A stretch of 64,000 nucleotides of DNA. It comes from Chryseolinea serpens. Lineage in GTDB: Bacteria > Bacteroidota > Bacteroidia > Cytophagales > Cyclobacteriaceae. Below, piece by piece: positions 32,641-38,375 of the stretch. Positions within the stretch are counted from its first letter, which is position 1; every line of letters starts with the position of its first letter. The DNA is taken from positions 930,001-994,000 of the forward strand of contig NZ_FQWQ01000001.1 in assembly GCF_900129725.1 (NCBI RefSeq), written 5' to 3'. The translations under genes were made by a program, and so were the position numbers. The notes under the pieces were generated by a model, which was given only the letters and a program-made list of their open reading frames with translations, did no database searches and had not been told where the DNA came from.

Positions 32641-33945
32641 CTAAAACTTCGTTAAAAGAAAATCCTTGAACGCTGCAAACTCCTTCGTTGCCGGAATCGT
32701 CTTCTTTTTTCCTTGCATGAACTTTTGCAATGCCGGTGGGATCTCGATAGTTCGACCTAAAGTGTCCTCCACCACTTCCTTGAATTTTGCCGGGTGTGCT
32801 GTTTCCAGGAAAATGCCCGTCACATCTTCTTTGGTTTCCTGTACGTATTTCTTTAACCCCAGATAGCCGATCGCGCCGTGAGGGTCCATGATGTAACCCT
32901 GGCCCGCGAAGACTGCACGCATGGCCTGCTGTGTTTCTTCGTCGCTAAAAGCATAGCCGCGAATGTCTTTGGAAAGGGCTTCGAAGTTCTTTCCGAACAA
33001 CTCCAGCATCCGCACAAAGTTGCTGGGGTTGCCCACGTCCATGGCGTTGCTGATGGTTTGCTGCGACGGGCGGGGACGAAACGTTTGGGTCTTCAAATAT
33101 TCAGGGACCACGTCGTTGCTGTTGGTCGCGGCGATGAAGCGGTGTATCGGCAGGCCCATACGCTGCGCGAGCAATCCGCCGGTGATGTTGCCGAAGTTTC
33201 CGCTGGGGATGGAATAGACCACCGGTTTTTTCAACGCCTGCACCTTGGCAAAGGAATAGAAGTAATAGAACGACTGTGGGATCAGTCGCGCGATGTTGAT
33301 GGAGTTGGCCGAGGTGAGAAAGAATTTCTTTTTCAGATCGGCATCCAAAAACGCCTGCTTCACCAGATGTTGGCAATCGTCGAACGTGCCCTCTACTTCC
33401 AGGGCCGTGATGTTCTGTTCCAGGGTGGTGAACTGCTTTTCCTGGATCTCGCTCACTTTGCCAGACGGATATAAGACCACCACGCGCGTTCCCGGCACGC
33501 CCAGAAAGCCGTTGGCCACGGCACTACCCGTATCGCCTGAAGTTGCGGCCAGGATCACAATCTCCTGGTGTTGCTGTTTTGCAAAATAGCCCAGCAACTG
33601 GGACATAAACCGCGCGCCAAAGTCTTTGAAAGCTAGCGTGGGACCATGAAACAACTCCAGCGAATAAACCCCCTCCTCTACTTTCACCACGGGTGCATCA
33701 AACTGCAGCGTATGTTTTATGATGCGTTGCAATTCCTCTTTCGGAATATCGTCACCGATGATGGCTTGTGCCACGGTGAAGGCCATGTCTTCAAAGGAGA
33801 TTCCCGGAAGGGCATCAAAGAATGCTTTTGGCAACACGGGGATACGCTCGGGCATATACAGTCCGTTGTCGGGTGCAAGACCTTGTGTGACGGCCTGGCG
33901 GAGGTCTACTTTGAGGGAGGGGTTATTGGTGCTGTAAAATTTCAT
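32641..33945 (-). CDS. thrC: Threonine synthase
   Basis: Converts O-phosphohomoserine to threonine (PLP enzyme, last step of threonine synthesis). The protein has 434 residues. Y-S-T-N at the start (MKFYSTNNPSLKVDLRQAV) and the PLP-lysine motif FHGPTLAFKDFGARFM are typical, as are ILAATSGDTGSAVANGFLG (phosphate/substrate loop) and SIPSGNFGNITGGLLA. Third gene of the thrABC operon, 53 nt after thrB; the operon ends at the inverted repeat. Confidence 0.96.
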   Translation of the reverse strand: MKFYSTNNPSLKVDLRQAVTQGLAPDNGLYMPERIPVLPKAFFDALPGISFEDMAFTVAQAIIGDDIPKEELQRIIKHTLQFDAPVVKVEEGVYSLELFHGPTLAFKDFGARFMSQLLGYFAKQQHQEIVILAATSGDTGSAVANGFLGVPGTRVVVLYPSGKVSEIQEKQFTTLEQNITALEVEGTFDDCQHLVKQAFLDADLKKKFFLTSANSINIARLIPQSFYYFYSFAKVQALKKPVVYSIPSGNFGNITGGLLAQRMGLPIHRFIAATNSNDVVPEYLKTQTFRPRPSQQTISNAMDVGNPSNFVRMLELFGKNFEALSKDIRGYAFSDEETQQAMRAVFAGQGYIMDPHGAIGYLGLKKYVQETKEDVTGIFLETAHPAKFKEVVEDTLGRTIEIPPALQKFMQGKKKTIPATKEFAAFKDFLLTKF

Positions 33946-33998: not shown

Positions 33999-34928
33999 CT
34001 AGGCGACAACGCGGGCTCCCGCATCGTTGATCTTGGATACGAAGACGTCGCTCTTCAGTTTCATGGACTCGAATTGTTGTTGCAAGGCTTTGCCCACGCG
34101 TTCGGCGATGCTGTACTCTGTGCTCAGCGAAAAGATCGTCGGCCCGGAGCCGGAGATGCCGCAACCCAGCGCGCCGTTTCTCAACGACTCGGCCTTGATA
34201 TTCTCAAAGCCTGGGATGAGTGCTGCGCGAATCGGCTCGGCCACCACGTCGTGCAGGGAGCGCATGATCAGTCCATAGTCGGGTTTCATCAGGCCCACCA
34301 CCAGGCCGGCAATGTTGCCCCACTGCGTGATGGCATCCTTCATGGGAATGGAGGCTTTCAATACTCTTCGTGAATCTTCGGTCTTCAACTCCAGGTGGGG
34401 ATGTACCAGCGTGCAGTAGAGGTTGGGTGGTGTGGGGATCTTGGCCACGTCGAGGGGAGCATAGCCACGGATCAACACAAAGCCGCCTAGTAGTGAAGGC
34501 GCCACGTTGTCGGCGTGGGCCGAGCCACAGGCGATGCGTTCGGCTTCCATGGCAAAGGGCAACAGTTGCTCTCGCGAAAGCGGGTTGTCATACAGGTGGT
34601 TGATGGCCACCAACGCTGCCGCGGAACTCGCCGCGCTGGAGCCCATGCCGCTGCCCAGGGGCAACTTCTTGTGCAACACGATCTCCGCGCCTTGTTCGCT
34701 GCCAATCGACTCCAGGAAGGCTTCCACAGCCACTCCCGCCGTGTTGCTGCTGGCGTGCAGGGGAAGTCTTCCCCCATCGCCGGTGATCTGTTTAATGACC
34801 ACTCCCGGTGTTGACGTGAGCGTGATGATCACTTCATCGGCGGGCGCTTCAACGGCAAAACCGAAAATGTCGAACCCGCACGATACGTTGGCCACGGTGG
34901 CGGGGGCTAATGCTTTTATGGATTTCAT
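33999..34928 (-). CDS. thrB: Homoserine kinase
   Basis: Phosphorylates homoserine to O-phosphohomoserine with ATP. A GHMP kinase of 309 residues, the normal length. The P-loop-like ATP motif is PLGSGMGSSAASSAAALVA (about 91-109), preceded by the KALAPATVANVSCGFDIFGF N-terminal segment and followed by the C-terminal GHMP domain with GCGISGSGPTIFSL. Middle gene of the thr operon, 50 nt after thrA. Confidence 0.96.
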   Translation of the reverse strand: MKSIKALAPATVANVSCGFDIFGFAVEAPADEVIITLTSTPGVVIKQITGDGGRLPLHASSNTAGVAVEAFLESIGSEQGAEIVLHKKLPLGSGMGSSAASSAAALVAINHLYDNPLSREQLLPFAMEAERIACGSAHADNVAPSLLGGFVLIRGYAPLDVAKIPTPPNLYCTLVHPHLELKTEDSRRVLKASIPMKDAITQWGNIAGLVVGLMKPDYGLIMRSLHDVVAEPIRAALIPGFENIKAESLRNGALGCGISGSGPTIFSLSTEYSIAERVGKALQQQFESMKLKSDVFVSKINDAGARVVA

Positions 34929-34978: not shown

Positions 34979-37426
34979 CTATTTGGCATAGTGACCAATG
35001 CGGATCACATCCGCAAAAACTCCTGCCGCCGTCACCTCCGCACCGGCACCGGGACCGCGGATCACCATGGGGCGGTCGTGGTAGCGCTCCGTGGTGAGCA
35101 AGATGATGTTGTCGCTGCCCGACAGGGAGTAGAACGGATGCTTGCCTTCTACGGATCCCAGTTGAATCTTCACCACACCGTTGTCCAGCACGGCCATGTA
35201 GCGCAACTTCTGATTCTTGTCGGCTGCTTTCTTGCGCAGCGCCTCAAATTCAGCGTCGTGTTTTTCCAGGCGTTTCATGAACTCGTCGATGGAGATATCT
35301 CCCTGGCACGATTCGGGCACGAGGTTTTCCACTTTGATGTCGCCCAGTTCCATGCTCAGGCCGGTTTCGCGGGAGAGGATAAGGATCTTGCGGGCCACGT
35401 CCATGCCGTTGAGGTCGTCGCGCGGATCGGGTTCGGTATAGCCTTTGGCTTTTGCTTCTTTCACCACGTCGCTGAATTTTGTTCCCTCCTCAAAGGAGCT
35501 GAAGATATAGTTCAGCGTTCCGCTCAGCACAGCCTCTATGCGCAATACTTTGTCGCCGCTCAACAACAAGTCGTTCATGGTGTTGATCACGGGCAATCCC
35601 GCGCCAACATTGGTTTCGTAAAGGAACTTCGCACCGCGTTGAAACGCCGTCGCCTTCAACTTCTGGTATTCTTCCATGGAAGAGGAGTTCGCTTTTTTAT
35701 TCGGTGTCACGATGGAGACGTTTGCCGACAGGATGGCTTCATAAAAAGCGGTCACATCCGGGCTCGACGTGCAGTCCACAAAAATGCTGTTGGGCAAATT
35801 CAGCGAAAGCATCTTGTCATAGAACGCCTGCATGCTCATGTCTTCGCCTTCTTTCACCAGCCGGTCAACGGCGGTGGTCAGCGTGAGGCCATCTTCTTCG
35901 AAAAGCATCTTGCGGCTGTTGGCCACAGCGACCACGTTCACTTCCAGCCGGTTCTCTTTGGCCAGCTTGGCAAATTGTTCGTTGATCATCGCCAGCAAGG
36001 CTTTACCGATCAGCCCGGTGCCTACCAGGTATACATTCAAGAGTTTGCGATCGGACAGGAAAAATGCTTCGTGCAAAGCATTCAGCGCTTTTGCAGCGTC
36101 CACTTGAGGGATCACGGCCGAGATGTTGCGCTCGGACGATCCTTGTGCGATGGCCACCACGTTCACGCCGTTTTTCCCCAACGCACTGAACATACGTCCG
36201 CTGGTGCCCGGGCTGTGCTTCATGCCATCGCCCACAACGGCGACGATCGACAGATCGGTCTCCACCGGGATCTCGTCGATTTCTTCGTTGCGGATCTCGT
36301 ATTGAAATTCTTTTTCGATGGCCGCCTTGGCGCGGTGAGCATATTCATTTTCAACGGCAAAGCAGATCGAGTGCTCCGACGAGGCCTGGCTGATGAGGAT
36401 CACGTTCACGTTCTCGCGGGCCAGTGTGGCGAACAAGCGCATGGAGGCGCCCACCACACCCAACAGTCCGCTTCCCTGCAAACTGAGCAGGCTCACCCCG
36501 TTCATCGACGAGATGCCTTTGATCATTTTACCATTCTTCGATTCCGCGTGGATCACGGTGCCTTCGAAGGTGGGGTTGAAGGTGTTCTTGATCCAGATGG
36601 GGATCTTGTTCACCATGGCGGGTTGCATGGTGGCCGGGAAGATCACCTTAGCACCGAAGTGCGAAAGCTCCATAGCCTCCTCGTAGCTCATCTGTGGCAC
36701 GGTGAAGGCTTTCTTTACCTTGCGCGGATCGGCGGTCATCATGCCATCGACGTCGGTCCATATTTCCAGGTCGGTGGCGTGCAGGGCGCCGGCGAAGATG
36801 GCGGCGGTGTAGTCGGAGCCGCTGCGGCCCAGGGTCGTGGTCTCGCCGCTTTCGGAGGTGGCCACAAAGCCGGTGATGATCTGGACGTCCTGGTGGTGTT
36901 TGAAGTATTCAGCGATCAGCTTGTTGGTCGTAACAAAGTCAACCTTGGCATAGCCGAAGTGGCCGTCCGTGCGGATCACTTTGCGGGCATCGAGGAACTC
37001 GGCGGCATGGCCGCGGTCTTTGAACGCTTCGGCAATGATGTAGGCAGAAAGGCGTTCGCCAAAGCTCATCACGTAGTCTAACGTGCGCGGTGTACGCTCT
37101 TTCACGAGGTATACGCCATGCAGCACGTCTTCCAACTCGTTCATCATAAACTTGACCTGGGCGAGGATGCCGCTTTGGCGCTGGATGTTGATGAGTTCGC
37201 GCACCGCTTCGAGGTGTCGCTTCTCCAACTCGGCCAGCTTGGTCTTGTATTCCAGGTTGCCTTGCAGGGCGAGGTGGCTCACTTGAATGAGCCCATCGGT
37301 GACGCCGCCAAATGCCGAGAACACAATGGCAATGTCGCCCGTGAGGAGAGGTTTTACGATTTCGATAACCGACTGTATCCGGGCAGGAGTGGCAACCGAT
37401 GAGCCACCGAATTTCAGGACCTTCAT
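34979..37426 (-). CDS. thrA: Bifunctional aspartokinase / homoserine dehydrogenase
   Basis: Catalyses the first and third steps of the aspartate-to-homoserine route. The protein has 815 residues, as in E. coli ThrA/MetL. Aspartokinase domain: MKVLKFGGSSVATPARIQSV at the start and TTLGRSGSDYTAAIFAGAL. Two ACT regulatory domains are around 310-460 (VSLLSLQGSGLLGVVGASMR, IVAVVGDGMKHSPGTSGRMF). Homoserine dehydrogenase domain from about 465: Rossmann VYLVGTGLIGKALLAMI, with TNVGAGLPVINTMNDLL and the EPDPRDDLNGMDVARK catalytic segment. Feedback inhibition by Thr is expected from the ACT domains. A Thr/Ile-rich leader peptide precedes it. Confidence 0.97.
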   Translation of the reverse strand: MKVLKFGGSSVATPARIQSVIEIVKPLLTGDIAIVFSAFGGVTDGLIQVSHLALQGNLEYKTKLAELEKRHLEAVRELINIQRQSGILAQVKFMMNELEDVLHGVYLVKERTPRTLDYVMSFGERLSAYIIAEAFKDRGHAAEFLDARKVIRTDGHFGYAKVDFVTTNKLIAEYFKHHQDVQIITGFVATSESGETTTLGRSGSDYTAAIFAGALHATDLEIWTDVDGMMTADPRKVKKAFTVPQMSYEEAMELSHFGAKVIFPATMQPAMVNKIPIWIKNTFNPTFEGTVIHAESKNGKMIKGISSMNGVSLLSLQGSGLLGVVGASMRLFATLARENVNVILISQASSEHSICFAVENEYAHRAKAAIEKEFQYEIRNEEIDEIPVETDLSIVAVVGDGMKHSPGTSGRMFSALGKNGVNVVAIAQGSSERNISAVIPQVDAAKALNALHEAFFLSDRKLLNVYLVGTGLIGKALLAMINEQFAKLAKENRLEVNVVAVANSRKMLFEEDGLTLTTAVDRLVKEGEDMSMQAFYDKMLSLNLPNSIFVDCTSSPDVTAFYEAILSANVSIVTPNKKANSSSMEEYQKLKATAFQRGAKFLYETNVGAGLPVINTMNDLLLSGDKVLRIEAVLSGTLNYIFSSFEEGTKFSDVVKEAKAKGYTEPDPRDDLNGMDVARKILILSRETGLSMELGDIKVENLVPESCQGDISIDEFMKRLEKHDAEFEALRKKAADKNQKLRYMAVLDNGVVKIQLGSVEGKHPFYSLSGSDNIILLTTERYHDRPMVIRGPGAGAEVTAAGVFADVIRIGHYAK

Positions 37427-37469: not shown

Positions 37470-37547
37470 GGGTGACCAGTTCATCCAACTCCTGGAGGTG
37501 GACACTAATCGGCATGGCTGGGGTATGGGATCACGTACGGGTCACCC
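37470..37547 (-). promoter_or_regulatory. Predicted translational attenuator of the thr operon
   Basis: In the thr leader RNA (minus strand), GGGTGACC (37547-37540) is exactly complementary to GGTCACCC (37477-37470). The first arm contains the leader peptide's TGA stop. A ribosome that finishes the peptide covers this arm; one stalled on the Thr/Ile codons upstream leaves it free to pair. Competing stems (CTCCAGGAG, AGTT/AACT) lie between. No T-run follows, so the output may be ribosome access, Rho or a more distal stop, not a classic terminator. Confidence 0.5.
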
Positions 37548-37649
37548 CGTAATGATGGTAATGGTAGAAATGGTGATGATGGAAGGGCAAGCCGGAGCAG
37601 CCTTTGTGATAAAGGAGCCGCTGAAAGGTATGGTGAAAGTCGCTTGCAT
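37542..37649 (-). CDS. thrL: thr operon leader peptide
   Basis: A 35-residue frame, ATG at 37649 after an A-run, TGA at 37544-37542, 115 nt before thrA. It has 7 Thr and 8 Ile; the last 12 residues are IITISTITIITG (6 Ile, 4 Thr), strikingly like the E. coli ThrL regulatory run ISTTITTTITITTG. Classic ThrL stalls ribosomes when charged tRNA-Thr or tRNA-Ile is scarce, raising thrABC expression. The TGA falls inside a stem arm that can pair downstream. A weak promoter (TACTTTG at 37697-37691) precedes it. The symbol is by analogy only. Confidence 0.7.
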   Translation of the reverse strand: MQATFTIPFSGSFITKAAPACPSIITISTITIITG

Positions 37650-37847
37650 TTTTTTGACGCACCGAAATAATGAAATGATCCACTTGATTGCAAAGTATTT
37701 TTTATGATTTTTGCACGAACTAACGGTTAGTAGTGCGTTGGCAACGTTTGAAATGAAATTTCGAGACACGCCAAGCCTGTTCAGACCCCAAAGTTTGTTC
37801 ATCACGACTGCTTCCGTCCGGTTTTGTTTCATTGCTTATCCTGATCC

Positions 37848-38375
37848 ATGTCCCGAAAGAAAAAATTTCCCCGTGAGTCCTTTGTCAGCATGACGGAGCT
37901 TGTTTTGCCCAACGATACCAATACCCTGAACAACCTGATGGGTGGAAGGCTCATGCACTGGATGGACATTGTGTCGGCCATTTCCGCGCAGAAGCACTCC
38001 AACAGCACGGTGGTCACCGCATCGGTGGACAACATCTCGTTCAAACACCCTATCCGGTTGGGCAACGTGGTCACCCTGAAGGCGAAAGTGACGCGGGCCT
38101 TCAACTCCTCCATGGAGGTGCGCATCGACGTGGAGGCCGAAGATGTTCCCAACGCCCACAAGTTCGAGAGCAACGCGGCCTACTTCACCTTTGTGGCCCT
38201 CGATCCCCAGGGAAAAACGAGAGACGTTCCCGAAGTGGAGCCCGAAAATGACGAGGAGCGCGCTTTATATGATGGAGCGCTTCGCCGCCGGCAGCTGCGC
38301 CTCATTCTTTCCGGCAGAATGAAACCATCGGAAGCCAAAGAACTCAAGTCCATTTTTGATATCAGCGAATCATGA
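37848..38375 (+). CDS. Hotdog-fold acyl-CoA thioesterase
   Basis: A 175-residue single-hotdog thioesterase of the YciA/acyl-CoA hydrolase group; hydrolyses acyl-CoA in the cytosol. The LPNDTNTLNNLMGGRLMHWMD segment contains the family's Asn and Gly residues around the central helix; VVTASVDNISFKHPIRLGNVV is the characteristic strand pair with the catalytic-region Asp. The C-terminal 40 residues (ENDEERALYDGALRRRQLRL) form a helical tail seen in the family. It overlaps the next gene by ATGA and is divergent from the thr operon. Confidence 0.9.
   Translation: MSRKKKFPRESFVSMTELVLPNDTNTLNNLMGGRLMHWMDIVSAISAQKHSNSTVVTASVDNISFKHPIRLGNVVTLKAKVTRAFNSSMEVRIDVEAEDVPNAHKFESNAAYFTFVALDPQGKTRDVPEVEPENDEERALYDGALRRRQLRLILSGRMKPSEAKELKSIFDISES

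Follow-up and report, generated by a model that had tools for sequence, protein, structure and literature searches.

Among the closest described systems is the threonine attenuator of Escherichia coli, thrL, a Thr/Ile-responsive leader upstream of thrABC. Its Rfam family is Thr_leader, which we take to be RF00506. E. coli thrL carries a NusA-responsive pause, thrL1; in the part of PMC9291695 that describes it, mutations in the 5' arm that were predicted to disrupt the hairpin barely altered the pause. In the attenuated leaders hisL, trpL, and leuL, a protector or pause hairpin lies just upstream of a pause (according to parts of PMC9291695 and PMC12288461), and NusA-stimulated and known hairpin-stabilized pauses are placed 10-13 nt downstream of the hairpin (in part of PMC12288461). 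Among the Bacteroidota, a leader-peptide element is known as Bacteroid-trp RNA (RF01692), which appears in a table of PMC2864571 (as excerpted). In Flavobacterium psychrophilum, there are hints of leader-peptide attenuation ahead of amino-acid operons, and hisG has a conserved 5' element with no Rfam hit; the section of PMC9723704 that deals with attenuation is silent on thrA, on a stop-codon hairpin, and on a box. In the passages of PMC4833913 and PMC2965389 that we searched, nothing concerns an element with a stop-codon hairpin and a box. In the literature that we searched, which came mostly from outside the subscription journals, there was little on the amino-acid attenuators of Bacteroidota and no recognizable description of a stop-codon hairpin followed by CAUAU. 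The most relevant earlier survey is probably that of Lopatovskaya et al. from 2010, which may already have predicted thr leaders in Bacteroidetes.

The thrABC operon in our window (the whole 64,000-nt stretch of Chryseolinea serpens DNA that was analyzed, from a genome of 8.36 Mb) has a leader that resembles thrL in its position and its codons. Unlike thrL, it combines a hairpin at the leader's stop codon (P1) with a CAUAU-type box, and it has no U-run terminator. It would be a new architecture among ribosome-mediated attenuators. It also differs from hisL, trpL, and leuL, in that P1 usually encloses the stop codon and a conserved box occupies the place of the predicted pause. The Thr_leader model had no match here, either at its gathering score or among matches with E ≤ 5. 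Bacteroid-trp RNA had no matches in this genome, and the thr leader contains no Trp; the ten Bacteroid-trp loci that we viewed have WWW leaders, a U-run terminator at the end of the element, and, by eye, no stop hairpin with CAUAU.

All parts of the operon are on the minus strand. thrA (34979-37426) encodes a bifunctional aspartokinase-homoserine dehydrogenase of 815 amino acids (AA_kinase, ACT_9, NAD_binding_3, and Homoserine_dh in Pfam). It is followed by thrB (33999-34928), a homoserine kinase with GHMP_kinases_N that we named from its position in the operon, and by thrC (32641-33945), a threonine synthase with Thr_synth_N and PALP. Among the matches listed, the nearest named relatives of this thrA are from Ohtaekwangia koreensis, a Cyclobacteriaceae MAG, and Chryseosolibacter indicus, and very near records may have been left out; this would place the genome in or near the Cyclobacteriaceae. 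The leader peptide ORF (37542-37649, minus strand) has 35 codons plus a stop; it starts with ATG at 37649, encodes MQATFTIPFSGSFITKAAPACPSIITISTITIITG, and has the Thr/Ile-rich end IITISTITIITG. There are 7 Thr and 8 Ile codons, 10 of them within the last 12, and 115 nt separate the TGA stop (37544-37542) from the ATG of thrA at 37426. An earlier note on this DNA had given the same positions and counts. The leader lies within the 421-nt region that separates thrA from a divergent gene of the 4HBT thioesterase family (37848-38372, plus strand).

The -7 promoter element of Bacteroidota is TAnnTTTG. A promoter-like TACTTTG (37691-37697, minus strand) lies 48 nt upstream of the leader's ATG; it is a weak candidate whose spacer is one base shorter than that of the consensus. 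Among leaders whose stop codon is enclosed by the short stem P1 (class A), 25 of 66 had TAn(n)TTTG 8-75 nt before the ATG, compared with 8.2 expected from shuffling, which is also weak evidence. A generic scan for promoters and terminators found none. The short ORF, rich in codons for the operon's product, lies between this weak promoter motif and the first gene.

We collected 200 thrA upstream regions, of which 185 were distinct over the last 200 nt and 184 were long enough to score. For each, we scored the best frame with its end 30-260 nt upstream of thrA, counting Thr in its last 14 codons. At least 4 Thr were present in 86/184 regions (vs. 1.9% of dinucleotide shuffles), and at least 5 in 72/184 (vs. 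0.14%). The conservation that the earlier note had proposed to look for is thus found in the recurring Thr-rich end, and the frame itself is kept in relatives. Subsequent counts use 93 leaders, from a slightly wider criterion; three frames were dropped although they passed the Thr criterion (L082, L114, and L194), and three were added by eye because P1 was present (L007, L054, and L056). By these criteria, 92 of the 185 distinct regions have no Thr leader, and many of these come from the family's more distant members. The last 14 codons hold 4.9 Ile and 4.5 Thr in this genome's own clade (14 leaders), versus 1.4 Ile and 5.5 Thr in 36 other class A leaders of Cyclobacteriaceae. Ile is thus as frequent as Thr in this clade while Thr dominates elsewhere, which fits dual Thr/Ile sensing here. 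Judging from these comparisons, the leader frame is real and conserved, and it is probably regulatory.

The core of P1 is ACGGG-GUGA-CCCGU (37537-37550, minus strand), with the UGA stop in its loop and extended pairing over 37530-37556. Its conserved pairing joins the stop-proximal GGG to the CCCGT directly 3' of the stop. P1 encloses the stop in 70/93 leaders (67/90 without the three that were added by eye), versus 11% when the 25 nt 3' of the stop were shuffled. The 70 leaders include 38 distinct sets of arms and loop, and all three stop codons occur. Different groups have different arms: ACGGG/CCCGU, ACAACCC/GGGUUGU, UACCCC/GGGGUA, UUACCCU/AGGGUAA, ACAAUCCGC/GCGGAUUGU, and CAUGCCC/GGGCAUG. 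The swap between groups from GGG/CCC to CCC/GGG would be hard to explain except by covariation. We counted covariation in an alignment (A9) of the 22 thr and his leaders that model R2 found; R2 was given 55 loci and missed the other 33 at E ≤ 2. In A9, 99.2% of the cells in P1 are paired (at most 64% in slid versions), both sides changed at 6/6 pairs, and the covariation score is 0.72, versus 0.16 when shuffled; because A9 was fitted to its model, it favors the named structures, and because its sequences are related, these counts are not independent events.

About 10 nt past the core of P1 is the box, here the variant CAUAC (37523-37527, minus strand), followed by CCC (37520-37522). An exact CATAT at +14 to +29 of the stop was found in 47/70 class A leaders (vs. 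2.3% of shuffles), or 62/70 if near variants are included; 8/70 have no box. In those 62, the box starts 9.6 +/- 1.0 nt past P1, and it spans about 10-14 nt after the hairpin. Where P1 encloses the stop, the spacing varies about equally relative to either element (standard deviation of 1.12 from the stop and 1.03 from P1). Only leaders with P1 before the stop separate the two, and we examined eight. In six of these (L110, L115, L117, L118, L149, and L156), the hairpin runs up to the stop codon, and the box lies 7-10 nt past P1 and just 7-9 nt past the stop; the hisG leader L243 of genome G007 also has P1 before the stop, with the box at 9 nt. L031 and L136 have P1 before the stop and no box. 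As the spacing is kept in these leaders, the box seems to be tied to the hairpin rather than to the stop codon. In L118, L149, and L156, we also noticed downstream GCC-GGC-GCC triplets, which by eye form two mutually exclusive 3-bp hairpins.

The unit of P1 and box is also found upstream of hisG. In the final scan, a His frame was present in 17/23 hisG upstream regions; 8 of the 17 leaders have a classical terminator alone, 4 have P1 and the box (L243, L245, L247, and L251, with a weak terminator-like match in L245 as well), and 5 have neither. L252 also fits P1 and box by eye (there the scan chose a different frame); L246 has the hairpin but lacks the box. Model R3 gave 7 matches in 38 relatives, 6 at hisG and 1 at thrA. 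Six of the seven are sequences from its own training alignment, A9, and only the hisG leader L300 of G024 is independent; read by eye, it ends in VHHAHHSS and continues with AUUCCUCC-UAA-GGAGGAAU and then CAUAUCGCCC. Two genomes, G024 and G006, have the unit at both hisG and thrA (thrA loci L018 and L010). G014 is mixed, with the U-run type of leader described below (class B) at thr (L022) and class A at his (L251). In 99 genomes of the class, the single R3 match with E ≤ 0.1 (L295) has no leader frame, and we judged it to be spurious. So, R3 alone does not show that the unit is widespread.

Other leaders have the textbook arrangement, which we call class B: Thr codons, and then a leader end that can pair with the 5' arm of a terminator with a U-run. 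Several Sphingobacteriaceae have class B, as do a few others. In the Sphingobacteriaceae thr leaders that were read in detail, GGAGGAAG complements CUUCCUCC of the terminator (by eye). The Thr leaders L159, L163, L180, L189, L196, L022, and L083 carry a U-run terminator of the classical kind and no stop hairpin. The hisG and trpE leaders of our own genome are of class B too (MRNAINNSNHHHHHVKHTMRGTAVS and MIKFTNIAWWWHRSGSDM, respectively). A His leader, HHHHHVKH (L248, G000:C10), lies upstream of hisG at 1696008, and a Trp leader, WWW (L321, G000:C10), lies upstream of trpE at 463191; a U-run terminator follows each. At trpE, UGAACAG near the stop complements CUGUUCA of the terminator (by eye). 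Across the trpE loci of this genome and its relatives, a Trp frame is present in 27/30, with a terminator in 26 of the 27 (the frame of L328 is doubtful). A hairpin-plus-box match at one of the 27, L314, was judged spurious. Since terminators are kept at hisG and trpE in this genome and at the relatives' trpE, the absence of a U-run from the thrA leader cannot be put down to the organism. One genome thus retains classical U-run terminators for trp and his and has a stop hairpin and box for thr, a contrast that offers a natural test of the ways in which a ribosome on the leader could control an operon without a U-run terminator. The earlier note had expected a readout other than an obvious poly-U terminator, and this agrees with our results: our thr leader has no U-run, and just 9/70 class A leaders have one.

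Beyond the box is a third structure, P3. Here it has a divergent form, GAUUAGU-GUCCA-(C)CUC-CAG-GAG-(U)UGGAU-GA-ACUGGUC (37474-37510, minus strand), with no U-run after it. In A5, an alignment of the family with 47 matches (46 distinct), both sides changed at 6/6 pairs of P3, and 94.2% of all cells are paired, versus 87.1% when shuffled, though A5 was fitted to its model and so favors the named structures. P1 is practically invariant within A5. The 5' arm of P3 has an alternative partner in the C-rich RNA past the box, and we call this pairing P2. This shared-arm pair of P2 and P3 exceeded the shuffled 95th percentile in 27/59 sequences; our genome has no clear P2. Two choices bear on these counts: the MAFFT alignments A2, A3, A6, and A7 mis-registered P1 or P3 and were excluded from counting, and the seed alignments A4 (9 sequences) and A8 (6) were picked for clean registration, which favors the named structures. 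Model R1 gave 47 matches over 84 loci, without our own leader (L002), and nothing below an E of 0.6 over 40 loci of other groups. In 59 relatives, all six R1 matches with E < 1e-3 sit at thrA, and none is in our genome. Neither R1 nor R3 scores this genome's copy. At gathering score, Rfam models matched just one tRNA in the window and nothing at 18 related loci, and we judged five low-scoring snoRNA matches to be chance.

We propose that the leader probably acts as a ribosome-mediated sensor of Thr and Ile for thrABC, in which the ribosome releases a pause at P1 and the box, and P3 sets read-through. Sensing of Thr (and here also Ile) by the leader ribosome is likely: given that the leader's codons match the operon's product, a shortage of charged tRNA would slow the ribosome at the Thr/Ile codons. 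An unslowed ribosome would reach and melt P1, which holds the leader's own stop. The simplest reading of P1 with CAUAU about 10 nt on is a hairpin-stabilized pause of RNA polymerase that the arriving ribosome releases; we infer a pause because known and NusA-stimulated hairpin pauses sit 10-13 nt past the hairpin and because thrL has a NusA-responsive pause. How the RNA past the box folds (into P3, frequently with P2 as an alternative) would then set how much transcript reaches thrA, so that the readout would be premature loss of transcription. Sequence comparisons support the leader, P1, the box, P3, and the reuse of P1 and box at hisG. More tentatively, P1 and box may form a widespread, reusable module of Bacteroidota, in which a hairpin melted at the leader's stop and a fixed CAUAU about 10 nt on would control transcription of thr and his operons without an intrinsic terminator, via a ribosome-released pause or a recruited elongation factor.

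Several observations count against this proposal. The thrL1 pause was barely altered by mutations predicted to disrupt its hairpin, and by eye the box looks unlike the E. coli pause consensus. The second segment of P2 lies about 25 nt past the stop enclosed by P1. The footprint of a terminating ribosome does not reach that far, so the control of P2/P3 by P1 is sterically unexplained. Terminator-like U-runs are found after just 9/70 class A leaders, the box is missing from 8/70, and 92/185 regions have no Thr leader. In our genome, P3 is divergent, the box is CAUAC, and the copy is invisible to R1 and R3.

The same unit could instead be a site for a trans-acting factor, such as a NusG-like antiterminator or an RNA-binding protein, to which the leader ribosome would gate access as it melts P1. 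Formation of P1 under starvation would in that case mean ON, as in class B, where a stalled ribosome would leave the stop-proximal RNA free. The combination of a hairpin whose sequence is free with a box that hardly varies in sequence or spacing suggests a defined signal, for a pause or for the binding of a factor, and the reuse of the unit at two operons and the lack of a U-run terminator in most of these leaders are consistent with a factor. But these features also fit a pause, and we consider the factor doubtful.

A classical two-state attenuator seems unlikely. The earlier note had suggested the logic of thrL together with a matching stem; in the two-state reading of it, upon stalling, the stop-proximal GGGGUGACC would pair with a distal arm, GGUCACCC (37470-37477, minus strand), and this pairing alone would decide the outcome. 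The two arms, GGGTGACC (37540-37547) and GGTCACCC (37470-37477), are indeed present and fully complementary, and their pairing competes with P1 and the outer part of P3. In our genome, the long stem has a pair probability of 0.33, its fold is 1.4 kcal/mol above the best one, and 1% of shuffles match the pairing, so it is possible as an alternative fold. Class B leaders do have a stop-proximal arm that is complementary to the terminator (by eye, at trpE and at thr in Sphingobacteriaceae). However, the distal partner is not kept even within the genus: GGTCACCC is missing from L005 and L007 and has one mismatch each in L003 and L004, and in L004 the change breaks one pair of the long stem while the outer P3 stays paired (by eye). 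The pairing is matched by 3% and 10% of shuffles in the two nearest relatives and by at least 13% in the other 11 of the clade; p ≤ 0.05 was reached in 2/14 of the clade (our genome included) and in 1/56 other class A leaders. Nor is there a terminator-like U-run. Of what the earlier note had suggested, the conserved Thr/Ile-codon leader upstream of thrABC is supported, and the stem that it named is not; the stems that covary are P1 and P3.

Slightly less probable still is translational control, in which the leader would alter access to the start of thrA rather than transcription. Although it would suit the absence of U-run terminators from most class A leaders, P3 ends 47 nt upstream of the ATG in our genome. 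Also, with a simulated ribosome absent, at the stop, or 12 codons upstream, the thrA start region had median unpaired probabilities of 0.59, 0.60, and 0.59 across 70 leaders. This constancy speaks against masking of the start site. A chance low-complexity frame with no regulatory role would fit the fold of the 261-nt leader as a whole, which is no more stable than shuffles (z of -0.11), but is scarcely credible given the conservation of the Thr-rich end, the frequency of P1, and the covariation of P1 and P3.

The P3 of our genome's clade (37474-37510 in the window; L003-L007, L036, and L045-L047) holds a conserved UCCAGGAG. The AGGAG in P3 resembles a Shine-Dalgarno sequence, though the start of thrA is about 50 nt or more downstream. 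Upstream of ilvD, we found no leader in the regions from our own genus; in relatives, the regions L256, L267-L269, L271, and L273 contain Ile/Val-rich frames, mostly with terminator-like sequence (by eye).
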